Of a stretch of DNA of 25,173 bases, positions 657 to 25,111 are shown piece after piece; position 1 is the stretch's first letter, and every line of letters begins with the position of its first letter. Origin of the DNA: Ectocarpus siliculosus. Its lineage: Eukaryota; Sar; Phaeophyceae; Ectocarpales; Ectocarpaceae. The stretch lies in assembly GCA_000310025.1 (NCBI GenBank), contig FN649746.1, positions 1,852,573 through 1,877,745 on the forward strand. Direction: 5' to 3'. The notes beneath the pieces are model-generated. The model had not been told where the DNA came from. It saw only the letters and a program-made list of their open reading frames with translations, and did not search any database. A program made the translations under genes and the position numbers.

Positions 657-3600
657 ATGGGCGGAGCCGAAGGCCCGGCTGCAAAGGATCCGATTCCGCA
701 GCGGCCGCACCTCTTCCAGCAGTACCCGCAGCACCTCTGCCGAGCGAACCAGCACGTCGGGGCGCGCGTCACGGTGTCCGGCAAGAGGCCGTCGTCCGAT
801 GCCGCGGAGCCCCCGCTGGAGATCCCGCCGCACGGCTTGGGGCTGGTCGGGTGCGGGGACAGTGGTGACGGTTCGGGCGGCACGGCCAGCGGCGTAGACT
901 CGCTGTCGTCTACGCCGGAGAGCTCGTGGGACGCGGAGCTGGTAGGCGACTTCGGCAGGCTGCCGATGGGGGACGTTGTGGTGGAGGTCTCTCGGAAAGT
1001 GAGTGTGGGGGGGGGGAGCAGGGGCGGCGGCGCCGGCTTCGCATCCTCAGCAACACTTGAGCGCATCCCTTTCGACTGCTGTGGTTTTGTGTCTAGAACG
1101 GGTAGTAATTCATGTGTTTGCATACGCATATTTTCGTTACAAAGACGCTACGGTGGCCGCGTGTACGCATACGACGAGCCATGAGCGCGCGCATACGCAT
1201 GATTAATATGGTCTGCGTCCCACACCACCCAGTTGCTTCCCAGTGGTCGACATCCGTAGCTGGGAAAGCGGCACCGCCGAGATGTGTCGGGAGTTTTGGA
1301 ACGTAGTTCGGGCGTGTCTCTCCGAAGACATGTCGTTAGAGAGGTTCTAGGACGTACGTGAGTTTTGTTGTTTGTTTCTTCAGCCTTGTGCACTCGCTCC
1401 CCGACGAGGGGTCCACATTGAACGCCGTCCCTCCCCATGGGTTCCGGGTTCGCCGTATGGGTTGATTTGCTTGCGGCGCATGGGTCATTCACCAACCACA
1501 AGCCCGTTCCTGCGGCATGAAAGCTCTCTTTTAAATCTGTTGCCTTTATTTTCGATCGATTTGTAGACATCGACGCTTATCTTCCTATAGTACGTTTTGT
1601 CGTTTTCGGATTCCGAACACCCCCGGTGGAGCCAAATTGGGGGGCGATCAATCTAGACCTCTTCCCCCACGACGCTTGGTCATACCTCAACAGTCACGAA
1701 GGAACAACCTATTTTTTCGTCTTGGCTTCATTTTGTGTCCAACCGCTGTTTGAAGGATTTCTTTCTGGGTCCATTTTTTTCCCGTTCGTAGATTTCAAGA
1801 ACGGTGTACCCCTTTCGGGGGGGGGGCTTGTGCCCATGGAAGGCGTGCGCATCAGTTGGACTATTATAGTACGGATATTAAAAGGAACTGAGCGGACACC
1901 GGGACGGTTTTTAATGTGAACACAGCAACCATTATTGGTCTTCCTGATTCCATCCATTTCCCGGCCCCCACGCCTTTAAACTAGGAGTGTGACTTGGAAG
2001 GCCGTCCAATCACCAGGATCGGAAACAGCCTGACCCCGATCACGGCTTCCTCCCCCGATGTTCGCGAAAGCCACATCGAATTCACGGGTCTCGAGAAAAC
2101 CGGCCACGACCTCCGCGGCCTGCGCGTTACAGCGATCTTCGGAGTGGATGCGGTCCATCAGATCGCTTGCGTCACCAGCCCCATCGAGGTGAGTTACATA
2201 CCGTATACGACACAAAATAACACACCCCCTGGACCGATTTTCGAATCTCGAATTATTGCACGATGAAGGGGATGCTTGAATGAATCGACACGATGTCGGA
2301 AAGCTCTCGACGAGGCGGCTTTAACGCCTTCATTTTCGGCGGTGCCAGTCAATCTGTTGTGGAGAAATCGAGTTTTGTAAACAGATTTAGGGGGTGTGGT
2401 ATCTTGTGACACCTACGGTAATCGGAGGCATGGTAACGAGGCTTGGGGGGGTCCCTGCCGGTGCTGAGCTTGGCGGCAGCAGTCGGCTGCGTCTTCCTTG
2501 GCACGGGTTCTACTCAACACACCTGTGTTGGTTTAGTCCTGGACACATCGCGGTTGAAGTGAGCGACAACAATGACTGCGTGATATCGGGGAACGTCTCA
2601 GAACCGAAACCGTAGGCGACGCAAAAGGTTCGATTCTGCTGCCACCTGCCGCGGCCCCCTTACCGTGATCATACCTGCGCCACAGTTGTTGCAGCACCCA
2701 CGATTAAGAAACAGGCTTTTGAGAGAAGGAAGGGGCTCAAATTTTGGCAATCCGTAAGAAAAATCTACTGAGAAGCACAAGGACCTAAAGAAATTGATCC
2801 TACACTCGATCCCACACTCCACTCTATATAATAATATCCTATGTATTATCTGGTGTGCTCGACGGTGGTGGTGACGAAATAAGAACTGGAGCCTCGACCC
2901 CAAATTGACGGTTTCTTAAACGCGGGCGCTAACTGCTGTTGTATGTTCCTTCGTTAGGTCGGACCCGATGGGCGCGCGTACTCGCGGGTGTTCTACCCGG
3001 GAATGCAAGAGATCTGGCCGGAGCTTTACAACACGTCTAACATCCGGTTGGTTGAGGTGCGGTGTGGCTAGGCTTCGAAGTTTGTTTCTGCGGGGGGTTG
3101 GGCAGGCGCGCGCAGGAGATTCCGCTCTAGTCTGCTAATTTGCAAAGCGGTTTAATCGTCCGTGAGAAGCAGCTGCCCAGGGGAGGGGAGGAAGGAGTGG
3201 AAGCAAGATGAAAGAAGGGGTCTGAAAAGGCCGTTGATGGCACGGAGGGATGGATGCATGAGAATTACCACTTGTGTGTATGTTTGTCGCTAGGCCGTGA
3301 AAGACCGAGACCGTGAGGCCTTTTTAGCCTGTCCACAGCCCTTTGATGTACCACGTTGAGAGATTCAGCATTGGCCCAGATGTCAGCAGCCTTCCCAGGA
3401 AAAACATGTAACTGTACAACATTGACATTCCAAGACGACGCATTTTCACCAAGAAAAGGAACGTTCATCCGAGCTCGTGTGGCTCCTCCAATCGGCTTGA
3501 CCTTTTCGTCTCCTGAAGCAGCTATCCCGATAACGATCTCCCCTGCCTGCCTCCCCCCGTCCACCCAAACAATGCCCTGCTGCTGTCCCTTCGCAGGTCG

Positions 3601-4871
3601 ACGTTGCCATCGAAATTTTATCGGACACGTGCGGCGAGTTCCGGTTTGTCGGGCCCCACCTCAAGGTAAGGCCAGGGGACCGCAAGCTGGGTTGTGAAGC
3701 TAGAAACGTGGTATGGTTCGTAGCTTGGACCTCTAGTTTCAACCAGCGTCGCGCGCCGTAAGTGGCTTGGCTTGGCGTTTCATTACCAAGCGTTGCGCTG
3801 GGCGTAGCAGCAGGCACGTCTTGCTGTCGGTGGCGTCCTATGTGTGCTGATGTAGACCAGCACGGCCTCCTACTGCACTCCATGGCAGACAAATCTCCCG
3901 CTACCTTGCTGGTGGCTTTTCCTTTTCCAACAACCACGATAGCCCCTTTTTTCGTTGGTCCCCCCTCTACACACTACTCCGGTTCGCGCGAGCATTTACG
4001 TGCGCATGCAAACCTGCCTAGTACAACCTCGGAAAGACTTTCCTGCAGCTCGCACACACACGCATGACGATCCCTCACGGGGTCCCAGATCATGGCCTTT
4101 AGAAGTTTTTTCTGCTTTCAACCGCACTGAGACCGACGCATTTGGTCAGCCGGTTAGCGCGGTCGATGCCAACATTTACATTTACAAAAAAAGAAAAAAA
4201 AAACACACACACACATGGTCCTCTTCAGACAGTTTGAGGTCGAACAATGGCATCACCTCTCGCGCCGGTATGTCCACCCCCCCCTTTGCCTGGAAGACCT
4301 GCGCCTGAATACAATCTTTGCACAGGGCTTGAGAATATCCCCATGCCTCTCGGTAACATCGATGTCTGTTTTCGTTGAATACGTTCATGTCTCCTCCGAT
4401 CAAGGCGTCTCGACCGCTTAGCGAACGACGCCGACTATCCCTGAACGTGCTACTCCGTTTTCTTAAAACTCACCCACGTCTCCTCCAATCTCGACTGCTT
4501 GAGCGAACAAAGCCGACCCTCCCTGATCGTGCTACTCTGATACGTCTACGTCTCCTTCAATCCCGCCTGCTTGGTGAACAACGCCGTCCCGCCCTGAACG
4601 TGCTACACCCACGCAGGTGGCCTACCGACGAGCCATACCACCCGTCGACGATGGCGGCGACGTTTCGCCGAGACCGACCGGGAGGCAAACCGCTCGTCGC
4701 GTGGCCGTACTGGTTGCGACGGGGGGGAGACCCCTGCAGGCACTCCCGCGCCAGGTGCTTCCCGCTCGCCCCCGTGCCGTCGACCACTCGTGGCCGGTGG
4801 CGGATCGATGCGTGGACATGCAACAGCAGCAGGCCTTTTACATGGGCGGCGAGGCCGCTGCGCATCAGCTA

Positions 4872-4902
<31 letters not shown>

Positions 4903-4922
4903 GGTGGGATATGCTGCAATAG
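657..4922 (+). CDS. Gene A: five-exon paralog of gene B, conserved beta-rich core and glutamine-rich tail
   Basis: Function not recognised with certainty. Exons are 657-998 (or 625-998 if the CCCCAG acceptor at 619-624 is used), 1985-2188, 2958-3056, 3597-3665 and 4617-4922. Every junction has GT..AG ends (donors GTGAGT at 999 and 2189, GTGCGG at 3057, GTAAGG at 3666) and every intron between these exons is phase 0. From the ATG at 657 the product is 339 aa. Residues 1-105 are Pro/Gly/Ser-rich. Residues about 105-238 form the core shared with gene B, containing TGHDLRGLRVT, IFGVDAVHQIACVTSPI, DGRAYSRVFYPG, WPELY and VGPHLK. Residues 239-339 are an Arg/Pro-rich then Gln-rich tail that stops at 4920-4922. 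The alternating hydrophobic pattern of the core suggests a beta-sandwich. Arrangement and tail would suit a transcriptional regulator, but no DNA-binding motif is proven. Splice calls rest mainly on exact agreement with gene B; the start is the least certain part. Confidence 0.8.
4184..4214 (+). repeat. A-rich run followed by CA microsatellite in intron 4 of gene A
   Basis: An A-rich stretch interrupted by G is followed by about six CA dinucleotides. This is simple-sequence intron content and nothing indicates a function. Confidence 0.8.
4386..4606 (+). repeat. Three imperfect tandem units in the last intron of gene A
   Basis: Units begin at about 4386, 4475 and 4546. Each starts with a variant of ACGTCTCCTCC, passes through a GAACnnnGCCG block and ends with a variant of CCCTGAACGTGCTACTC. 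Unit spacings are 89 and 71 bp, so the array has gained or lost short pieces. It runs almost to the 3' splice acceptor at 4615-4616. The pyrimidine-rich unit end may supply the polypyrimidine tract of exon 5 (inference). Gene B has no counterpart. Confidence 0.7.
4819..4902 (+). repeat. CAG/CAA tract encoding the Gln-rich tail of gene A
   Basis: A short run of Gln codons at 4819-4833 precedes the main CAG tract with CAA interruptions at about 4870-4902. In the exon 5 frame it encodes a run of about ten glutamines before a short RWDMLQ end. The tract is likely length-polymorphic. The tail of gene B is also Gln-rich but is not alignable residue by residue. Confidence 0.9.
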
Positions 4923-4931
4923 TTGCGGTTT

Positions 4932-4932
<1 letters not shown>

Positions 4933-4969
<37 letters not shown>
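4933..4969 (+). repeat. GA dinucleotide microsatellite after the gene A stop codon
   Basis: About 18 GA repeats begin ten bases after the stop codon, in the presumed 3' untranslated region. They run into a GGGAGAGGGAAGGGAGG purine tract, giving roughly 60 bases of nearly pure purine on the plus strand. Confidence 0.95.
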
Positions 4970-4971
<2 letters not shown>

Positions 4972-6733
4972 CGGGAGAGGGAAGGGAGGATGAGAGGTGT
5001 AACATGGAACGCACGCACAACGAGAACGGTCTTATTTTTGTGCTGCAAGGGAACCCTTCATTTTGTGGTCCATTGCTGTATCCGTAGCGTGATGCTGTGA
5101 TGGTGCTGTGCCTTTTCCGGTGATGCCATCAATGTTCGCGTTCTCGAGGTCATCGTTGTTCTTGTGTTTCGTGTCACGGCTGAAGCACTTCTTCTTCCGA
5201 TGTTGTATTTCTTCGTGGGTATCGACTATGTCGGGCAGGTATTGGTCTGTATTTACGCGCCATTAGCGGTTCCTCTCCCCCCCAAGTTTGTTTTTTTTGT
5301 CGCTTCTGTGCGTACAGTGTTGAGTGTTGTTTTTCAGTGCTCTGCCGGGCACGCCTCTCTTACACATGGGAGTTTTACCTGTCGTTCGTGTAATTTTCTG
5401 GTGTTGGTAGATTTGGCAGATTTGACCGCGAGAGCGGCCTCCTCCTTCCCCAATATGTTTGTTCTCTGGGTCGCGTGTACAACGTCTTAGGGCACCGGGA
5501 AAAGTTCGCTATTATTGTTTGTACCATGTGAGACGATTTGCTTTTTGTATTTTGTGTCTGGCGTTGCTTCGATGTCTGGACGTGCCTCTGGCGACACGGA
5601 GAAGGGAAACTTGACTTGATGTCATGTATAGTAGGAAAGATTCACGCCCACACGGTATTGTCTTTGTTCAGTATGCAAGGAACGTCACAAGTTCTCCGGT
5701 GCAATAGATATTATTGATGTGTTGCCCGTGATGTAGTCGGAGGTACCTAATGAGTACCACCACCACCGCCCCCGCCCACTCCCCCGTTTCTACCGTTTTG
5801 TCAAGTGGTGCTGTTTTCGATTGTACGATCTCTGGCTCGTTTCAGGCGCGTAGCAATATGCTTTTCTAGAGTTTTGCGCTCGACGAGTACTGGGTTTGTT
5901 TGCCTTCGCTTGTCTCCCGCCATGATCGACTGCTGTGCCAGTACATACGCACCCCTATATATCTGTAAACGCGAAAGCACCAAGGCATGCATACGCATGT
6001 TGTATCCCAAGAGAGTCCACCGTCGAGGGTACACGGCGCGAACATTATATTGTGGGATCCGTACATACAGTCGTCGGGGGGCGGAGATAATAAACGTCAA
6101 TATCGGGTCGATTCTTGTTTCTTCACTGCTCTATAGTTATTTCTGATTGCTAGTTAGTGTAGAATCCTCCGCGGAGGTGTGTTTTACCCAAGTACATATA
6201 TTTATTTTTCGTGAACGTTTCTCTCTTTTTCTTGGCGGCTATTTTCATGGCGGCTGCGGCGGGCCCGCACTGCTGTACAGCTGTTGATTGTATGGCATTC
6301 CTCCTCCTCTGTGATCCCGGCTGATGATATCTACTGTAGTTGTCGAGGACACACGAATTGCAGAAGGAATCAGGAACGGGGGGGAGCAACTGTAATCCAG
6401 ATAGTTTATTGCATGACGACGGGGCGCTACATGAAAACTCACTTACTTTCATTTTCAAGTTCTTTGCACAAGTCTACCGTACCAGGTACGTATTATAGTA
6501 GATTTTCGTGGAAGAAATATTGCAATAGGTATCGTAGCTGCAGATAATTACAAGCAGAGCCAATTAATTACATCAAAACTTAAAACCCCCTTACCACGCA
6601 CAGAAAATTCGGCGTTCTTGCGAAATTTCTGAAATGTAAGAGAAAGAGCGAACGACGCCTGCTGATTGGATGGTGCAGACAGTTCCATCCCTGGGTGCAA
6701 GTGCAAAACTGCCTTCCCACTTGAGCCGTCTCT
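4970..6733 (+). other. T-rich 3' flank of gene A, no gene seen
   Basis: No exon is supported. Composition is T/G-rich on the plus strand (for example around 5190-5560), like the stretch after gene B. This is compatible with a long 3' untranslated region, which is common in brown algal genes, but no transcript end can be placed. Short open stretches on both strands lack family features. Confidence 0.4.
6081..6133 (+). repeat. Short dispersed repeat, copy 1
   Basis: A segment beginning with GGAGATAATAAACGTCAA, followed by an ATCGGGTCGA core and a TTCTTGTTTC block, recurs with about 9 extra bases and a few substitutions at 12288-12345. It could be a degraded transposable-element end or a shared fragment of an older duplication of the flanking region. 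Neither copy lies in an exon. Confidence 0.5.
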
Positions 6734-6796
6734 TGTCTATAATCCCTATCAATTGTCCCCTCGATACGAGGGCACATTTGATAGGGTTTATAGACA
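6734..6796. repeat. 63-bp near-perfect palindrome (hairpin-capable)
   Basis: The 31-base left arm starting TGTCTATAA and the 31-base right arm ending TTATAGACA are complementary at 27 of 31 positions around a single central base at 6765. Mismatches fall at arm positions 10, 20, 24 and 31. The palindrome could form a long hairpin as RNA or a cruciform as DNA. Candidates are a miRNA-type precursor, a collapsed miniature inverted-repeat element or a binding site; none is proven. Confidence 0.9.
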
Positions 6797-9001
6797 GCAA
6801 CTGGCGGGAGCGTGGTAAACGGGGAACGAAAAGGAGGTTTTCAAGATATTGCTCTAGAGGGAAAGCGAGACCTTCTAACTCAAGCCCTAGGTTGCTCGGT
6901 GCCTCCTATCAACGGTGGGCTAGGTACTTCTTCCGCGCTTGCCCCTGTAGCGCTTTCCACCCAAGGGTAGACAGACGCGGCGCAACTTCGCTGTTGAACC
7001 CGCGGCGTAATCGCCCCGCGATTCGACCCGTTCATTACCCTCATACTCCTCCATTGTACAAAGCATCCATACTAAATAGACTAGAGTCGTCCCTGTGTAT
7101 TAGTGTTAGCGCGCGGCCTTCTTCTTTGTAGCTAGCCCGAGAGTCAAGTGCACGCAACGACCACTCACTACTGCTGTACTGCCGTAGACAAACGTAACTT
7201 CGTAATTGCGAACGAGACCAGAACAACAAACAACAGTCGGTTCTTCTAAAAAGAAACGGTACAATAATAATGATATAATGGTGTACGTATGGTATCTGGA
7301 CCGAGCACTGGTTGTTGCGTGTTTTTGGCGTTTGTTTGTCGTCGTGTGTGTGCTGACTATACTACTACCATGACACGTACTTTTTTATTACTTATTGTAG
7401 AAGAAGCATTGCAGGAGTAGGGATTGCTGTTCAACATCAACATGAAACTGTTCCGATCTCTGCGCATCCATGGACGTACTGAACTACTGGTGGTTGGTCC
7501 GGCTGCCGCCGACACCTTCACTGCGGGAGTAAAAGTGCAGGTGCGGTCATCTTCTACATATATATCGATCGGTGTTGTGCGGATGATCACCCACCGACCG
7601 CGAATATTGTCATGGCAACGAATGAATGAACAACAATCCGTCGTGTGTGTCAACTACGGCGGTTACTCTAGAGATGTCTTGTCATGCGTGGAAATCAGTT
7701 GATTGTGAGAGGTTGTGTGTTGCAGAGAGGTCAGAGCGTGGATTCTCCATGATGTCGTGGGATGGATCATCATCCTCAGCTGCGCGGCGGGTAGTTTCAC
7801 ACCACAGAGAGCACGCGGACAAATGGATCGGGAGACCGGGAGATTGATCATCGGGCGGCAGAACCCATTTTTCTACTAGAACCCTTTTGCCTGCCCAAAA
7901 CACCCCGTACGGCGCGATTCAGACATTTCTCCGAAAATAATCGTTGGCTGTATTTTGAGACGGTAGCCGCCGCTTGCCCATTAAAATCGAACAGAGCGGT
8001 CCGGAGAACGACAGACAGAGCGGTCTGGGGAACGCACTGCAATTCCCTTCGTTTTGAATATGCTGATCATCAGTGGTGAGAAAGGTAGCCGATGCATGCG
8101 ATGGGTTCGCTTCCAGTATTATAGGTCTGAAAGCCGATTTTATCTCCAGGTCAACCCTTTCGTCAAACGGATGTCCCATGACGCCAAGCCTTTGACCATC
8201 GCTATTTTTCGCTATTTTTCGAGGCGCGCAACGACCCGACTAATATATATTCTGAAAACAGCTGACAAGTATTCTGAAATAGCTCTCAGGTGCCACGTCA
8301 CCCCAAAGTTTTATACCGCTGCACTTGTGCATGTAGATGATATCACGCCCGAACTGCAACGAAATAGCCCGCAGGCCAACAGAAAAGTGATCTTGCGCAT
8401 CGACCCTTGCACCCTTTGCCGCCGCCGTCTTGAACTTTGCGTGCTTTTAGCCAGGTTCATGATCAGTCGGCTGCTGTGCTCCTCTCTTGCCCCCTGAGTC
8501 ACCATGCAGCACAGCGAAATTCAAATTTACTCATCTCCCTGCTGCATGTTTGCTGCGCATGTGAGCAAGTAGCTAATTCTCATTTTCCTGAGTACCACCG
8601 ATGCAATGGTTGAAGGTTGAGGTGTCCTCTTTTATCTTTCATAAGAACGCGGAGGGAAAATATTTTGCTCTTTCAGTTCCGAACTGGTAGAAAACTACAC
8701 GGTATTCGGTATCCTGCTCTGCGGGGGGCGGCTGGTGCGCCACACTGGTGTAACTTATACCCCTTGCACCCAACTGCTGTGCCCGTTTCGATCACGCGCA
8801 CCATACACACACCAAACGGCAGCACTGCAAATCTCGATCCTCCCCAGCAAGAGTGGCACCCGAGAGAGTCATCCGCATCAGGTTTCTCTCGGCACAACCA
8901 TCCAACTTCTATCGTCCAGACGAAAGAAGACACCAAGCCGCAACCGCCCGCCTGCGCCTGTTGTGTGTGGCCTGCTGTGTGCACCCAAGCTCAATCATAA
9001 C
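6797..9001. other. Intergenic stretch without a supported gene
   Basis: Several open stretches occur on both strands (for example plus 8054-8497, minus 7919-8179), but none shows a recognisable motif, conserved splice structure or clear coding composition. Small features are a 24-bp tandem duplication at 7991-8038 and a directly repeated CGCTATTTTT near 8201-8222. Confidence 0.4.
7991..8038 (+). repeat. Two-unit 24-bp tandem repeat
   Basis: ACAGAGCGGTCCGGAGAACG at 7991 is followed at 8015 by a copy with two substitutions in its first 20 bases. It is an isolated local duplication with no link to a gene. Confidence 0.8.
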
Positions 9002-9745
9002 ATGGCTACACCATCTTCAGACACGCCATCCAGCTCGCCCACAGGTGGCGCTGGAAGCATGCGGCCGGTTCGGCGGAAGCAAAGGGGCTGGGTGTTTAAG
9101 ATTGATGGCATCGCGAACCATGGTGAGACTGCTGCGGCTGTTGGCTGCTGCCGAAGCCTCATGATGTTGTGTGCACATCGACAAAAAACTTGCATCAAAA
9201 CAGGTTTGAAACGAACATGATCGCCTTCTGTGTAACGACGTAGATAACTCCGGAGATTAGATGTGAAGATCCTATCGACAGGTGACTTTCCTGACCACCA
9301 CCACCTCCAACCGCTGCGACCACTGCGCTCTCTTATCCCCTCACGGACTCTTGCCTCTTGCGTCGTGCCCCTTTGCCGTCGGCATCATCGTCAGAGATGA
9401 CGGAAGAGGACCTGTTTTTCGCCGTCCGTGAGAGGTACACGACCGTCAAACGTCTGGCCCTCAAGCACGCTGGCCCAGGACCAGCATCAGAACAAGCGGC
9501 TGAACCTGCATCAAAAAGCACACATGATCAAGTCGGGTTCCAGGCAGCGGCAGCTGGCGGCGTCCTGGTCGAAATTCAGTTCGCAGGCCCCCAGCCCAGC
9601 GAGGGTTGCGGCGCGCTCCTGTGCCACCTTCTTCGTGGCACCTCCGTGGAAGCCAGGCCCGTGGAGCTACCGCGCGGCCGCAAGAAAAATGCCGCTGCTA
9701 GATCCGATTCTGGTGCCGCGGCTGCTGACGGTCATCTATTTTCAG
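9002..9745 (+). CDS. Possible third gene: two exons, coiled-coil-like protein with a frame break
   Basis: The start ATG at 9002 has an A at -3 and a G at +4. Exon 1 is 9002-9122, encoding 40 residues rich in Ser/Pro then basic (RPVRRKQRGWVFKIDG), and ends phase 1 before GTGAG. The acceptor ATCGTCAG ends at 9394, and exon 2 continues in phase with EMTEEDLFFAVRERYTTVK. Codon composition then suggests the true frame moves by one base near 9463-9475, into a Gln/Lys/Leu-rich helical stretch (LAQDQHQNKRLNLHQKAHMI) that stays open to a possible phase-0 donor at 9745 (TTTTCAG|GTGCG). The unshifted frame also stays open, to a stop near 9790. The pattern resembles coiled-coil proteins; a weak resemblance to the N-terminus of RPGRIP1-type ciliary proteins is only an impression. 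It could be a real gene with an assembly indel or a young pseudogene. No downstream exon is assigned. Confidence 0.4.
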
Positions 9746-11544
9746 GTGCGCTGCTGCTGCTGCTGCGGCAAGGAGTATATATCTGTTGGTGATGTTCATC
9801 TCACCCCTGCTCCTACTGTCTGGCACCAGTAGTTGCTAGGCCGTGTGTGTGTGTGCTTTCGAACTTCAGTAGAGCAGTACGTTATGCTGCTGATGCGTTA
9901 TGCCAACGCGACGTTTTCCTAAAGTGAGAGGACGAGTTTAGATCCTGCAACGGGCAACGTGCGAGTAAAGGTGGTAGCTGGATGGCAGTTCGCTTATTGG
10001 GCAGTTCGCGCCAGCGTGGAAGTATTTGCCAGCCTACAAACTGCTGCTGGTCTGTGATCTGCTGGTATACTTCAGCCGTCTCGAGCCCCAAAAGGTTGAA
10101 GACACGCCCGCGAAACACACTCTCGGATGGTCTGTACTTGTTTGTTTTGTGAATCTTTCTCAGAGCTGACGGCTGTGTGTGGTGCGATCCCGTCTCATTA
10201 CCACAGAGAGAGAGAGTGTGTGTGAAAGAAAGGGAAGATGGACCTATAATCTACCGCAGCAGATACAAAGTGCCGTGCGGGAGGAGAGGACGAAAAGTCT
10301 CAATAAATAATTATGCATGCAGAATAAACAAAAAATGCACGCGGTGGATGGACGTTGTGGAGACGTTGTACCGTTATTATCATCGTATCTCACACGCAGT
10401 AGCAGTCTGCTACTACTGTAGTCTAGCTGGTACAACATGTTTCTCGAGGAAGATATGCATACGTACGTGGTCATATGTTGTTGTACCTGGGTCCTTCGCC
10501 CATAGTTGAACCCTTGTGTATTGATTCAAACTTGGTAAACATTTGTTGAGTAGGAATACGTAGTTTTAGTTGGCGATTGGCAGTACAGCAGTAGACTTGT
10601 TGAACCGTAAAGAAAAGTTGCCCCCTGTGTGAAAAAAAGTCTGTTGAAATGATTTAATTGGTGTTTTCGCTTGCGATTTCTCCGACCCTCACCCACTGCC
10701 GGGCGTTGGGTTGCACGCTATCATCGCGAATCGATCAATGAGACACACGCACACACCAGCGAGATCCTACGGTTTGTCTGTCGGTCTCACAACATGCCTT
10801 GTCGCGAGGCTCCACACCTGCTGTGCGTACTCTAGTCAGTGTGGCAGCGGACACAGAAAATAATGGAAGTGTGTGTGGCTTTTTGGGAAAAGGTAAATCA
10901 TCAGCCAAAACGTCAGTCAAACCACCAGCAAAGGAAAACCGTTGTACGGTCGCGATGGTTGGTACAGGCCCGGCGAGATGGCACAGGCCGAAGAGATCGC
11001 CCCCCCCCGCGCGCGCGTTTTTGTTCGATAATAAAGCCAGTGGGTTTTTGCACAGGGATCAGAGATGTGGCACAGGACGGAGAGAGAGGAGGTCGCACCC
11101 CCGTGCGACAAAAGAAACAGTTTTAGATATTAACAGGTTGATCGCACACACGCCTACATACAGCAGTACTTTCGCATCCTCACGGCATATTCCACAGCAT
11201 AGACGATGCTGTGTATGGGACAATGGCATAGCCGCTGACGGCACGGCCTGTGACCACGGAAGGATGCGTTTTAGTTGGACCAGCACGGATACAGAAGATA
11301 CCGAGCAGACAGGTTTTTCATTGTGCATTGTCTCCACCGAAAACTAAAATCCAGACATACAACGGTACATGTACAGCTTTTTCAAGCACTCTTTTACGTG
11401 CTTACCTATCTAGACTGTGATACCATCTGTATTTCTCAGACGGGATGGGGTGTACTACAGTAGGTGCAGCTCTATTGAGACCAGCACCCCCTTTTCCAAT
11501 GGTACGCACAGACACACGAAGACATGTATTTTGCTTTCTGACAA
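9746..11544. other. No supported gene between the third gene and gene B
   Basis: Nothing recognisable was found. If the donor at 9745 is real, further exons of the third gene should lie here, but no clear acceptor-exon-donor unit stands out. The open stretch at 10799-11347 is stop-free but lacks protein-like composition. A CT/GA-rich patch lies near 10205-10230 and a C-run followed by alternating CG near 11000-11020. Confidence 0.35.
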
Positions 11545-11578
11545 ATGCCGGTTGCAGACATTGTTGTCGTCTACTCAG
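11545..11578 (+). CDS. Candidate short first coding exon of gene B
   Basis: ATG at 11545 opens eleven codons (MPVADIVVVYS) plus one base, immediately followed by a perfect GTGAGT donor at 11579. This phase-1 end fits the phase-1 acceptor at 11896-11897 (GGGGGCAG), which would join it to GYGGSMLLPPHQ in exon 1 of gene B. Gene A exon 1 also has an acceptor in phase 1, which supports an extra 5' exon in both genes. The exon is very short and could be chance. With it gene B would be 291 aa instead of 275. Confidence 0.3.
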
Positions 11579-11911
11579 GTGAGTCTTCGTCTACGGGTAG
11601 GTGCGCATGTGTACGTATTTTTAGTCATTCCTCATGAAAATCATCGGTGTGTCCCAACGATTGTAAACACGATCAACGTACGGTCATGGTGGTCGATGCT
11701 ACTCTTTCAAGCTATGTAACGGCGCTTGTGGCAAAATCACCGTCCCTTGTCGGATGTCAACGGTTCGCCCAAGCGGCGCGCCGTATGACCTGTAGCTCGA
11801 CGGACACCCACCGCTCGTTCTCCGAATCAACTCATCTATCGACAACGCTGACCTTCGCGGCGCCACCCCCTCCCCGGTGTACGTCAAACGGGGGCAGGGT
11901 ATGGGGGTAGC

Positions 11912-14900
11912 ATGCTGCTGCCACCGCACCAGGGGTTTGATGGCCAAGGTCTGCCTTTCCCCGGGATGCATCATCCGCCCGGGGGTCACCCGTCCTACTC
12001 TGGGTCGGGCGAAGGCCACCACCCGCTGTCCTCGACGGGCCATGGCTTCGGCGGCGGCGGCGGCGGCGGCATGGCCGAGGAGCGCAGGCTGCCGATAGAG
12101 GGGGTGGTGGTCGCGCTGGCCCGCAAGGTGGGTGGTACGCGCCGCTTCCGGCGTTGGTAAGTAGCGCTTCTCGTCGCGTTGCTCACGCGTGATTCCGTTG
12201 CCCCTCGTCGTGTGGTAAGAACGCGCAGCTCGTATGTTTTCTTTTCCCGCCACTGACGGGGGCTGTTTCATACGCAGAACGGGGCCGGAGACATGAAACG
12301 TCAAAATCGGGTCGAGATTCGGTTTCTTGTTTCATCGCCGCTATGTATCGAAGCAAGATGTCGGTTGTGCCCGTGCGCCGCGGATACTGGGGTCGCAGGA
12401 ACGGCATGCCGTAACGGTCTCGTAGAGGAACAGCTTGTCATATAGATTTAGTATAGGATCCACCGCTGAGCTGTGTTTCATAACCCTATTTTCATATCTT
12501 TTGTGATAATTTGAGCCTCTGTTTCTTAACTATTAATGGATACTTCGAAGTATATCTTGACTGCGGGCCCGTTCTGCAGCCCTGCTGCCGTGCCCCCGCC
12601 CCGGCTACATCCTCCCTCTGGTGTTGAACGGTAGCAGGAGCGACCCGTGCACAACGCAAGCAAGCCTCCTTCCCCGTCCTCCTCCAAGTGCTCGGTGGAC
12701 ACGCGACGTACACCACAAAGCATGAATACTCTATTCTGGAGTTGTAGGGTCCACGCGAATGACTCACATACACGCTGCGACCTGATGGATCCCTCGATCG
12801 CACCCCCCGACATCTCTCGTTCCCAGCCTTTCCCAAGCCCCCACGCTCCCCGGCCTTGTATTTCCGCGGCATGACTCTTGAACACCACAACCCCGACGAC
12901 GATCCCGCGGCTACAGGAATGTGACTTCGAAGGTCGCCCGCTTCCCGGGGGCGGCAGCGGCATGACTCCAAGCAGCACTGTCTCCTCGAACGGCCGCGAT
13001 ACCCACGTCGTGTTCACGGGGCTAAACGACACCGGCCATGACCCCCGGGGCCTGCGCGTCACGGTGATCTTCGGAGTCGATGCTGTGCACCAGATTGCCT
13101 GCGTCACGAGCCCTATCCAGGTGGGTTGAGGCGTCTTGTACAGTAATGGTGGTGTAGTGACAGACGAAAATCGCCGCGTTGTATCGGGAGCCTGCTGGGC
13201 GGGTGGTATGCGTGCGCCTCTAGTCTATATTGCTTGAGCGTTCGGGGGGAGGTCCCTGAATAGGGCTAGGCTGTTGTGCCAAGGAATTATCACCGCGATA
13301 TATGCATCGAGAACCGCGCTACTGGGGACCGCGACATATCGGGACCAGTCCATAGGCCGAACGCTTGATAGTGACCGCATCTCGGCTGTCTCACGCGCCT
13401 AGGCCGTTTCTGTTGGGCCTCGACTGGCGAGACTCAGAAACGATACAGTCGTGCTGTGCCCCCGACCCCCCAACCTTAATGTCGTGCCTGCCTTTCTGTT
13501 GTGTGTCTTTGGTCCCTTCTCCAGGTCGCAGCCGATGGTCGGGCGTACTCTCGGGTGTTTTACCCCAGCCTGGAAGAGGTCTGGCCGGAGCTGTACTACA
13601 CGGTTGACGTTCGAGCGGTTGAGGTGCGGTGGGAGGGCCTCGCACATCCCCCGCGTATCGCGTCTGTTGCTTCTCCCGACTTTGACGTCGACCCATTTAG
13701 GGTCAGATATCACAAGCACGCAAGAAAAAACGTAACACCTCCCCAGCAAAAGACATCCCCAACACCGACGGATGGCAGACGTATATCTTGATCTCAGCTA
13801 TCGGTGCCTTCCGCCAATGAGTGTCCTCCTCTGTCGGTCTCTCCGATGTTCGAAAAAAAAAGACATCCCCGTAGCCATTGCATGGGAGTTGAAGCCAAGC
13901 CGTGGCGCTGTTGAGAGATCTCTCGCCCGCGAGTGCATAACAAGAAGCGGGTTCTGAGCATTTACGAGGGGTTGTTGGCACCTGGCTCCCGTAAATATTT
14001 GAGGACAAGCACCGCCCACCTATGCTTCCATTTTGAACCCCGAACCTTTCCCGAAGTGTTAGCGACTCCCGAGGAAGTGGTAGCGTTACTCCCGCGCCCA
14101 AAAAATAGATCGGTTGGGAAATCAGGTCTAGCCTCCAGCGTCCGTCCGCACCTTCGCCCCCTACCCGACCTTAACGGTGTTAGGTTGCTCTGTTTCATTC
14201 CCAGGTCGACGTTGCCGTCGAAGTTCTCTCCGACGATGGTCGCGAGTTCCGGTACGTGGGCCCCCACCTCAAGGTAAGACGTGTGGGCAGGAAACTCGGG
14301 CGTGTCCCTTTGGTGAGCGATTGTTCGGATGAATGGATGATGTTGGCCGGCTGTCGGCGTGGCTACTTTAATTATTGTCCGTGCGGTCATGTGATGCGCT
14401 CGGCAAGGCACGAGGCAGGTTGGAATATAATCATGTCAAAGTCCAAGAGAGTTGGTTGCGGTAGAGGGGGGGCGTGCTCTTGTTTTGAATGCCTTAGCGG
14501 TTAGACCATTCACCACGCGTCGTCGAGAGGACGGAGCGTTGTTCCCACAAGACCGATCACCGACGGCCAATCGTTCCTGCCCCTTGCGGTGGGGTGGGGG
14601 GGAGGGTGTACTCATAGTCGTGCATGCCGTAGTCGTTAGAACATTGACCTCGCATCCCTACAAAGCCGGGACGGAGCACGCCGGGTTCTCACCGGACCAG
14701 GCTCTCACGTCACCAAGCGCGAAGCGCCGTGAGGTATTTGGCGAGTCATGAAGGGTGCGCTGCATCCTGCTAGGGGTGTTCGGCATCTTGTGCTTACTTC
14801 CTTGCGTACGGATGACACTTGCGTATGACTTAATTTATTTTCTGGTGCTTTCACTTCCATAGACAGTTGTAAGCACTGTGCAACTGCCTCGAGGGTGTTT

Positions 14901-15794
14901 GACCAATTTAACACAACGTGGTGCGATAATCCCCTTTGCACTGAGTGAGGGTTCTCGACCCCGCACAACATAATCTACCCGACCACCATTCATGGTGAAC
15001 GAAACAAAAACAAAGCGAAGGCAAAAAAAACGGTAACCTGGTTGCCGAGCTCACGAAGTGATCGGCTTGTTCTACAATATCGCTGCCTAGCGACGAGAAC
15101 TCAACCCCGATGGCAAACATCGGGGAGGGGGATGGCAAACATCGAGGGGGGGGGGGGGGGTGAAGTATTTAGGGAAGAAAAGGGGATCGTTGAGGAGGAC
15201 ATGGAGAACCGCAGTTGGAAACGATTGTCTTGTACGTTCATGATTGTTTAGGCTAGAAAGTGTTGTGTAAAAAAAGAAAACTCGCTACATATCGTACACG
15301 AGGAGAAAAGATGGTAGCCGCACAAACACCAGAAATGGATGAAGGTGTAAGAGAGGCAAGATCGCCGACAGGAGAACACAAGACAGACCACAACGAGCGC
15401 CCAAAAAGGACGCTGGCAGTGTCCCGCGTTTGGAACTACAGTAGCTGTATTTACACCTAAAGTTCTTGCTTGGTGCACGACCACGAAAGACAAGCAATAA
15501 ATGCCCCCATTCCTTCCTTCCCTCCCAACTCCCCCGGACACGTACGAACAACAGGTGGGATACACACGCATCACGCCCCCCTCCGGCGCCATGGGAATGA
15601 TTCCGGCGGCCTTTTCGGCATCGCGCGGAAACCCGTCCGCAGGTATGGGGCAGCCCGGTTTCCCTGGGGGCGCCGCCTCTGCGGAGCAGCAGCAGCAATG
15701 GCAGCAGCAGCAGTGGCAGCAGCAGCAGTGGCAGCAGCAGCAGCAACAGCAGCAGTCATGGTGGCAGCAGCAACAGCAGCAACGAGGCCTCTAA
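11912..15794 (+). CDS. Gene B: five-exon paralog of gene A, conserved core and Gln/Trp-rich tail
   Basis: Exons are 11912-12127 (or from 11898), 12917-13120, 13525-13623, 14205-14273 and 15555-15794, with GT..AG ends and phase-0 introns throughout. The product is 275 aa from the ATG at 11912. Residues 1-62 are Gly/His/Pro-rich with a run of seven glycines and look disordered. Residues 63-196 are the core: VVVALARKECDFEGRP, then VVFTGLNDTGHDPRGLRVT, IFGVDAVHQIACVTSPI, DGRAYSRVFYPS, WPELYY and FRYVGPHLK. Residues 197-275 are Pro/Gly-rich, then glutamine blocks separated by single or paired tryptophans, ending QRGL. Exons 2-4 have the same lengths as in gene A, and substitutions are mostly conservative or in the linker after EGRP, so both copies appear selected as proteins. 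A nuclear regulatory role is inferred only from the tail and an uncertain resemblance of the core to velvet/Rel-type folds. Confidence 0.85.
12288..12345 (+). repeat. Short dispersed repeat, copy 2
   Basis: This is the second copy of the segment at 6081-6133, located in intron 1 of gene B. It keeps the AACGTCAAAATCGGGTCGA core (one change) and the TTCTTGTTTC block, with an insertion between them. The minus-strand open stretch over it (12183-12407) is therefore more likely repeat than gene. Confidence 0.5.
14466..14700 (+). repeat. SINE-like element of two diverged tRNA-like units in intron 4 of gene B
   Basis: Unit 1 (about 14466-14580) starts with a G run, then a CGTGCTCTTG block and TTAGCGGTTAGACCATT. 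Unit 2 (about 14590-14700) repeats the plan: G-rich run, GTGTACTCAT, GTAGTCGTTAGAACATTGAC, then CCGGGTTCTCACCGG. The GTTAGA segment resembles a tRNA D-arm (A-box region), and GGTTCTCACC in unit 2 resembles a B box, at tRNA-like spacing. Unit 1 recurs inverted at 24999-25111 with about 88% identity by eye. This suggests a tRNA-derived SINE family or a LINE 3' end; the element class is inferred. Confidence 0.6.
15109..15160 (+). repeat. 22-bp tandem duplication ending in a 15-base G run
   Basis: GATGGCAAACATCG occurs at 15109 and 15131. The second copy is followed by GA and then a G homopolymer at 15146-15160. It lies in intron 4 of gene B about 400 bases before exon 5. The G run could form a quadruplex in the transcript and is a likely place for assembly error. 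Confidence 0.8.
15687..15782 (+). repeat. CAG/CAA tract with TGG interruptions encoding the gene B tail
   Basis: In the exon 5 frame the tract encodes blocks of three to eight glutamines separated by tryptophan codons, including one WW pair. The first three blocks are near-regular five-codon units (four Gln plus one Trp). This Q4W pattern differs from the uninterrupted run in gene A. Confidence 0.95.
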
Positions 15795-23208: not shown

Positions 23209-23784
23209 GACGAAGGGGCACGGGATGAATTCCAGAAGGGACTGGCTGGTAGTGTCGAACCCTTGAGGACACTGCTGAGAAGCGTCGAATACGGACAGGT
23301 AGACGTACAAGCAGCAGGGGACAGGGTGATGAAGGACGGGAGTCCATAGTGAACACAACGGTAGAGGGAGTAGTGGGAAAGAAGGTGGTACGGTGTGGGG
23401 TATCGGTTAAGTGGTGGGATGACGAGCTGAAAGAAGAAATAGGGGAACGTAGAGAAGTCTTCAAGAGTACCTGGGTGAGGGGTCTGAGGAGAGTTGGGAA
23501 AAGTACAGGGCCAAGAGGAAACAGGTAAGGGACTATATAGTGAAAAAGAAGAAAAAGTGCATTTGGGACGAAGTAGTGCAGAAGGCCAACGGGCGCCGGG
23601 AGGGGAACGCCAAGCAGATGTGGGAAGGGATTAGTGGGATGGTAAATAAGACCGCTCAAGGGGGGGATACAGGGGTAGCAACTTTGCGAGGTGTAAACGG
23701 AGGACTAGTCAGCAATGGGAAGGGAAAAAGGGAAGTTCTTACAAGAGGCTTCGAGTACCTTCGGAGAATTAAGCTTTTGACCAA
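23209..23784 (+). pseudogene. Decayed LINE linker region upstream of the reverse transcriptase
   Basis: Pieces of the segment usually found between endonuclease and reverse transcriptase are readable in successive frames. The first is GDEGARDEFQKGLAG at 23209-23346. The second is IVNTTVEGVVGKK then VKWWDDELKEEIGERREVFK at 23346 to about 23487. The third is EESWEKYRAKRKQVRDYIVK at 23486 to about 23770. The frame then returns to that of the RT. The WWDDELKE...RR and WEKYRAKRKQVR patterns are typical of non-LTR elements. All three frame changes are in the same sense, each like the loss of one base. No endonuclease is seen, so the copy is probably truncated near 23170-23210. Confidence 0.7.
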
Positions 23785-25098
23785 GTGTTTAAGAAGGAGG
23801 TGGACGCATGGGCCCAGAAAGAAGAAGAGACATCGAAGGCAGACGGTGGGAACGTAGAACTAGAAAAGGAGTTCAATAAGGACGAGGTTGAGGCGTGTGT
23901 GAACAAGCTGCAGTGCCACAAAGCAGCAGGGGCGGATGGGATAGTCAACGAGTTCATGAAGTTTGGGGGGAAGGGGATGATCCAGCTGATGGTACTGCTG
24001 TACAACTGGGTGTGGAAAAATGAGTATGCTCCAAGTAGATGGAGGGAAGGAGTGGTTGTGAACTTGTTTAAGAAAGGAGACAAGACTGACCCAGGAAACT
24101 ACAGGGGTATCACACTGTTGAACACAGTAGGAAAAGTGTTCTGTAAGCTGCTGAACGATAGGATAGTGGGAGTATTGGAGAAGGAACGTAGCATTAGTGA
24201 GGGCCAGGCAGGTTTCCGACAGAAGAGGGGGTGCGTATACCACGCATTCATGGTAGGGAGAATCATCCAAGGTAGAAAGAGGGCGGGAAAGCCGACGTAC
24301 TGCTTCTTCCTGGACGTGAAAAAGGCATACGATACCGTATGGAGAAATGGGCTGTGGAAACCATTGTCCAAGTACGGGATCGAGGGGAAAATGTGGAGAG
24401 TGCTGAAGAAGATGACAGAGTGTACGAAAAGCGCCGTCATGCTAGACGGAGAACTGTCTAAATTCTTCGACATTGAGCAGGGGGTCCCACAAGGTTGCAC
24501 GCTGTCCCCGACATTGTTCCAGGTGTTCATCAACGATCTGTTGGAAGTCGTAGAGGCAGTCCGGAAGGGAGTAAAAGTAGGGGACACGGAAACTTCGGTG
24601 TCAGGAATGCTGTTTGCGGATGATTTTGTTGGTATGTCGGACACCCCTGAGGGACTGCAACTGCAAATTGACGCGGCGAAGAATTTTACTGATAAGTGGA
24701 GATTGTCTGCCAACGTTAAGAAGAGTGCCGTCATGGTGTGCAACGAGGACAGGGAGGAACCAGTAGAACATAGATGGAAATGGGGGATCGAGGAGATTGC
24801 AGTAGTGGACCAGTACACATACCTCGGAGTAGAGATCGCAAAAGACTGCTCGTGGAATGCACACATGTCCAAGGTAGCGGAAAAGGGCAAAGCACACATG
24901 TCCAAGGTAGGAAGTGGTTTGAAAATGGCGGGAAGGGACATCGTTTGGACAGACAGACTAGGGAAGACATTTTTGAGCCACCTTTGGCAAAGTAGGAAGG
25001 AACGATTGGCCATCGGTGATCGGTCCTGTGGGAACAATGCTCCGTCCTCTGGAGGACGCGTGGTCAATGGTCAAACCGCCAAGGCACGCAAAACATAA
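23785..25098 (+). CDS. Non-LTR retrotransposon (LINE) reverse transcriptase, chimeric 3' end
   Basis: The 437-codon open frame begins at an arbitrary GTG because the true upstream part is frameshifted. It carries the reverse transcriptase blocks in order: KAAGADGIVNEFMK (about residues 45-58), FKKGDKTDPGNYRGITLLN (about 95-113), EGQAGFRQKRGC, motif A FLDVKKAYDTVW with Asp177, motif B QGVPQGCTLSPTLF, motif C LFADDF with the catalytic pair FADD at 277-280, WRLSANVKKSAVMV and YTYLGVEI (about 345-352). The enzyme family copies element RNA into DNA at the target site. The RT core is unbroken, so the copy is fairly young or was recently active. After HLW near residue 403 the frame enters the inverted SINE-like repeat (24999-25111), so the last 35 or so residues are not LINE-derived and the usual C-terminal zinc knuckle is missing. 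Confidence 0.92.
   Translation: MFKKEVDAWAQKEEETSKADGGNVELEKEFNKDEVEACVNKLQCHKAAGADGIVNEFMKFGGKGMIQLMVLLYNWVWKNEYAPSRWREGVVVNLFKKGDKTDPGNYRGITLLNTVGKVFCKLLNDRIVGVLEKERSISEGQAGFRQKRGCVYHAFMVGRIIQGRKRAGKPTYCFFLDVKKAYDTVWRNGLWKPLSKYGIEGKMWRVLKKMTECTKSAVMLDGELSKFFDIEQGVPQGCTLSPTLFQVFINDLLEVVEAVRKGVKVGDTETSVSGMLFADDFVGMSDTPEGLQLQIDAAKNFTDKWRLSANVKKSAVMVCNEDREEPVEHRWKWGIEEIAVVDQYTYLGVEIAKDCSWNAHMSKVAEKGKAHMSKVGSGLKMAGRDIVWTDRLGKTFLSHLWQSRKERLAIGDRSCGNNAPSSGGRVVNGQTAKARKT
24859..24910 (+). repeat. In-frame 33-bp tandem duplication in the RT frame
   Basis: GCACACATGTCCAAGGTAG starts at 24859 and again at 24892. The encoded protein reads HMSKVAEKGKA twice in part (the second copy continues HMSKVGSG). 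Period is 11 codons, so the frame is kept. It lies in the region after the YLGV block. Confidence 0.9.
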
Positions 25099-25111
25099 GA
25101 GTACGCCCCCC
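24999..25111 (-). repeat. Inverted copy of the SINE-like unit at the LINE 3' junction
   Basis: Read on the minus strand it matches 14466-14579 at about 88% by eye, starting in the same G run and including GACCATTGACCACGCGTC, GAGGACGGAGCATTGTTCC and GATGGCCAATCGTTCC. It overlaps the end of the RT open frame. The poly-C run that follows on the plus strand is the G run of the element in reverse. Confidence 0.85.

Follow-up and report, generated by a model that had tools for sequence, protein, structure and literature searches.

The stretch of DNA analyzed here (the window; 25,173 nucleotides from Ectocarpus siliculosus) contains two genes on the forward strand, A and B, each composed of five exons in models that were derived from the genomic sequence, with predicted start codons and 5′ ends. 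In gene A, exon 1 (657–998, 342 nt) encodes a low-complexity N-terminus, and its final 14 residues apparently belong to a domain that is common to both proteins. Exons 2 (1985–2188, 204 nt), 3 (2958–3056, 99 nt), and 4 (3597–3665, 69 nt), all in phase 0, encode the core of this domain, and exon 5 (4617–4922, 306 nt) encodes the domain end, followed by an Arg/Pro-rich stretch, a poly-Q tail, and the stop codon, with a CAG repeat at 4872–4900. Gene B follows the same plan. Its exon 1 (11912–12127, 216 nt) contains a putative start codon and encodes a Gly/His-rich N-terminus, the final 14 residues of which apparently also form part of the domain; exons 2 (12917–13120, 204 nt), 3 (13525–13623, 99 nt), and 4 (14205–14273, 69 nt) are in phase 0; and exon 5 (15555–15794, 240 nt) encodes the domain end and a Q/W-rich tail that terminates in a stop codon, with a repeat array at 15685–15781. 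The predicted proteins, rebuilt from the sequence, comprise 339 residues (A) and 275 residues (B), and neither reading frame contains an internal stop before its stop codon. All eight introns have GT-AG ends and are in phase 0. The lengths of introns 1–4 in A/B are 986/789, 769/404, 540/581, and 951/1281 bp, and the rebuilt models thus agree with the initial annotation in the sizes and phases of exons 2–4 and in all of the intron lengths. For Ectocarpus, a mean intron of 740 bp and a GC content of 54% have been reported (PMC6418280); the mean intron length here (788 bp) and the GC content of the window (53%) come close to these values and are consistent with a brown algal origin.

The end of A and the start of B are 6,989 bp apart. 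Between them lies a candidate gene C on the forward strand, formed by segments 9002–9122 and 9395–9745, which can be joined through a GT-AG intron into one open frame; later exons of this candidate were not found. Its product weakly resembles the Pfam p31comet (Mad2-binding) family (E 0.21–0.23, 11 bits versus a cut-off of 24), and among its seven matches in the PDB sequences, two chains of MAD2L1-binding protein cover the same stretch as p31comet (E 0.91 and 1.1), with four matches ranking above the first of these chains. The description of A and B as a tandem pair is therefore loose: they are local paralogues, and with the possible gene C between them they may be neighbors rather than strictly adjacent duplicates. 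A frame of 441 residues at 23773–25098 on the forward strand encodes a reverse transcriptase (Pfam RVT_1, E 5.9e-34), which in our judgement is LINE-like. Besides RVT_1, the Pfam scan, which covered 19 of the 232 listed frames of the window and the joined gene C, yielded only sub-threshold matches, such as DUF4716 (E 0.0011), Cyclin (E 0.023), DUF1765 (E 0.038), and SR-25 (E 0.055). The DUF4716 match corresponds to a 29-residue stretch of a frame on the reverse strand within intron 1 of B (12778–12864). No tRNA or Rfam matches were found in the window.

Homology between A and B is clear in exons 2–4, where the two genes share 83 of 124 residues (44/68, 22/33, and 17/23 in exons 2, 3, and 4, respectively) and 280 of 372 bases; the residue count, previously made by eye, is reproduced exactly by recomputation. 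For each of the three exons, the alignment score was reached by none of 60 shuffles, and a tblastn search with gene A detected exon 2 of B with an E value of 2.7e-25. Identities at codon positions 1, 2, and 3 number 94, 109, and 77 of 124, which is the pattern of translated exons. Outside A and B, no third copy of the domain was detected below E 1 by tblastn of the whole window.

The domain is not assigned to any family in the libraries that we searched, in line with the initial annotation. Neither the domain nor either of the full-length proteins reaches the cut-off of any Pfam family, and the best Pfam match of the A domain is DUF3719, with an E value of 0.19 and 11.9 bits versus a cut-off of 23. 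Searches of NCBIfam and PHROGs with the A/B domain returned no match, and neither did a search of the PDB sequences with A or with the A/B profile. The only PDB match of B, a putative glycerate kinase (E 0.52), was taken as a chance similarity, as were the 65 phage records that were retrieved by tblastn with the A core, all with less than 60% identity and with E values of 0.5 to 3 for the best 20 of the 65. Pattern searches for relatives yielded 75, 65, 57, 13, and 15 stretches in viral contigs, none of which was confirmed by tblastn, and 168 and 166 stretches in prokaryote genome contigs, none of which was confirmed. Judged by titles and the beginnings of abstracts, the literature matches listed include no recognized description of the family, which does not imply its absence from print, and a search on transcription associated proteins of Ectocarpus and brown algae found nothing. 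Structure prediction was applied to exon 2 alone and gave four strands, the locations of which coincide in A and B, with no helix of at least four residues. Both predictions were run on one pair of sequences, entered in opposite orders; their mean pLDDT values of 55 and 57 and pTM of 0.34 are too poor for naming a fold. We take these models only as a hint that the segment encoded by exon 2 may be mostly β.

Velvet proteins of fungi (VosA, VelB, and VeA) combine a β-rich domain of ∼150 residues with low-complexity arms, an organization that A and B, with their low-complexity arms and possibly β-rich domain, would resemble. A velvet/Rel (NF-κB-like) DNA-binding domain, which would make A and B transcription factors of the fungal/animal kind, could be envisaged from the strands in the low-confidence exon 2 models, the Q-rich tails of both proteins, and a by-eye resemblance of LRVTAIFG...TSPIEV...FYPGMQE in A to the end of VosA. 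This identity is, however, very improbable. When the A/B profile was compared with VosA and VelB using hhalign, the score was 11.9 over 6 columns, and 95 of 200 column-shuffled decoys reached it, whereas VeA, used as a positive control, was found with a score of 135 over 149 columns and a probability of 99.5%. Among the Rel, RUNX, STAT, CSL, and velvet kinds of domain, this one-by-one comparison covered the velvet proteins, and for an immunoglobulin fold of the Rel/NF-κB kind the models covered exon 2 alone, at the poor confidence given above. The FPGM-like match of A is absent from B, which carries FYPSLEE at the position of FYPGMQE. The A/B domain is also acidic, with a pI of 5.1–5.3, unlike the pieces of VosA and VelB that were used (9.2–9.3), which weakens a DNA-binding reading, yet the corresponding value for VeA is 7.0. 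There was no accepted Pfam match (the velvet domain is PF11754) and, as noted above, no PDB match for A or the A/B profile. We reject a velvet/NF-κB-like identity on sequence, with the profile similarity to the velvet proteins compared being at the level of decoys while the control was found. Literature searches joining the velvet domain with brown algae, and velvet/Rel homology transcription factors with stramenopiles, returned nothing.

The likeness of A and B extends beyond the three internal exons. The ends of exon 1 (RLPMGDVVVEVSRK in A and RLPIEGVVVALARK in B) are identical at 8 of 14 residues, and the starts of exon 5 (VAYRRAIPP and VGYTRITPP) at 5 of 9. At the DNA level, the exon 1 ends form a 51-nt repeat with 73% identity (repeat D8), and taken alone the exon 1-end match is weak in tblastn (E 2.8–3.8). 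Both matches are short and suggest homology without being strong. With the likeness reaching into exons 1 and 5, the five exons correspond and all four intron sites are equivalent, each in phase 0 in both genes; introns 2 and 3 are flanked by clearly homologous exons, and the equivalence of introns 1 and 4 relies also on the short matches. The common domain then seems to span ∼147 residues across five exons, more than was initially noted. This bears on exon shuffling, in which a gene of unrelated origin would have acquired a copy of the exon 2–4 block alone; in its favor, most of exons 1 and 5 cannot be aligned between A and B. Both arms are, however, of low complexity, for which quick divergence is expected, introns 1 and 4 occupy the same place and phase in A and B, and the suggestive matches at the exon 1 ends and exon 5 starts also speak against shuffling, making it a very improbable origin. 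The protein identity, the exon 2 match, and the equivalent intron sites instead identify A and B as paralogues.

The exons and introns of the two genes have diverged very differently. Over exons 2–4, dN and dS were 0.21 and 0.69 (NG86), 0.18 and 1.20 (YN00), and 0.19 and 1.08 (ML), which correspond to dN/dS ratios of 0.30 (bootstrap range 0.19–0.49, 500 of 500 resamples), 0.15, and 0.18, respectively; these ratios are approximate because dS is high (0.7–1.2), and each is one pairwise value from two sequences in which constraint is not separable by copy. At fourfold sites with common first two bases, 23 of 49 are identical. The ratios are not near 1 and indicate purifying selection on the exons, so the earlier proposal that the protein core has been kept holds for the pair. 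A pairwise ratio cannot tell the two branches apart and would tolerate one of the genes being a decaying or unexpressed pseudogene, but the full open frames, the GT-AG ends of all splice sites, and the coding-type substitution pattern in A and B make this most unlikely.

In the intron interiors, from which 6 bases at the donor end and 20 bases at the acceptor end were taken off, the alignment scores were reached by 41, 8, 36, and 18 of 60 single-base shuffles for introns 1–4, respectively, so the interiors align no better than shuffled sequences, as expected for neutral introns. Slight likeness may be left at the edges of introns 2, 3, and 4: the two genes agree at 20 of the 31 bases with which intron 4 begins, and in both intron 2 and intron 3 at 12 of 20 bases on the acceptor side. 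Nearly all sequence likeness has thus been lost, which bears out the suggestion that the introns were rewritten after the duplication. Repeats and mobile-element pieces occur in and near the introns. Intron 4 of B contains a retroelement fragment on the reverse strand (14466–14581) that is a reverse copy of 24995–25110, where the reverse transcriptase frame ends, with 98 of 116 nt identical (inverted pair I1). In intron 4 of A, a 49-nt unit is present in three imperfect copies (4408–4609, family D6), which are spaced by 82 and 71 nt and adjoin the exon 5 acceptor. A short dispersed similarity (74%, E 5e-6) links 12281–12342 in intron 1 of B with 6077–6130 downstream of A and is probably a repeat fragment.

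We consider it very likely that A and B are old copies of one intron-bearing gene, both of which have been retained under constraint. A single gene would have been duplicated together with its introns, and both copies would have been kept in use, with purifying selection holding the exons that encode the ∼147-residue domain. The four phase-0 intron positions would have persisted, while the intron interiors would have drifted, gained or lost DNA, and taken in pieces of mobile elements until almost no likeness was left. Both copies are presumably expressed, and each is probably constrained, as judged from their sequences. The contrast between exons and introns, which the initial annotation had singled out, is not noteworthy in itself. 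At a dS of 0.7–1.2, synonymous sites are strongly diverged, so unalignable introns at persisting positions are expected, and the contrast reflects the ordinary action of purifying selection in the exons and of drift in the introns, the common course for duplicated genes. In a study of rice segmental duplicates (PMC1779517), 197 of 281 duplicated pairs (70%) are identical in the number, position, and phase of their introns, and the other 84 are not. A and B resemble these pairs in having the same intron number, positions, and phase, conserved exons, and introns that are free to diverge; they differ from the pairs described there in being a local duplicate rather than a segmental block, in their non-plant host, and in the unassigned protein family.

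As for function, a compact, acidic, and possibly β-rich domain might bind a partner, and the low-complexity arms and Q-rich tails might aid the assembly of complexes, possibly in transcription. The Q-rich tails in both proteins, the domain pI, and the four strands of the exon 2 models weakly point to a regulator or adaptor of this kind that acts inside the cell, a reading that we offer tentatively, as poly-Q by itself is weak evidence for a regulatory role. It is likewise conceivable, although doubtful, that the domain is a β-sandwich of its own kind and, together with Q-rich arms, defines an as yet undescribed family of regulatory proteins in brown algae (or stramenopiles), in which a local duplication left two diverged copies that were both kept. 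In their gene structure A and B are ordinary, and they illustrate no more than that intron sequence is lost sooner than exons and intron positions. The conserved domain, which went unrecognized in the family libraries that we searched, may be of more consequence. Should it occur only in brown algae, it would add to the lineage-specific candidates of a group that became multicellular independently.
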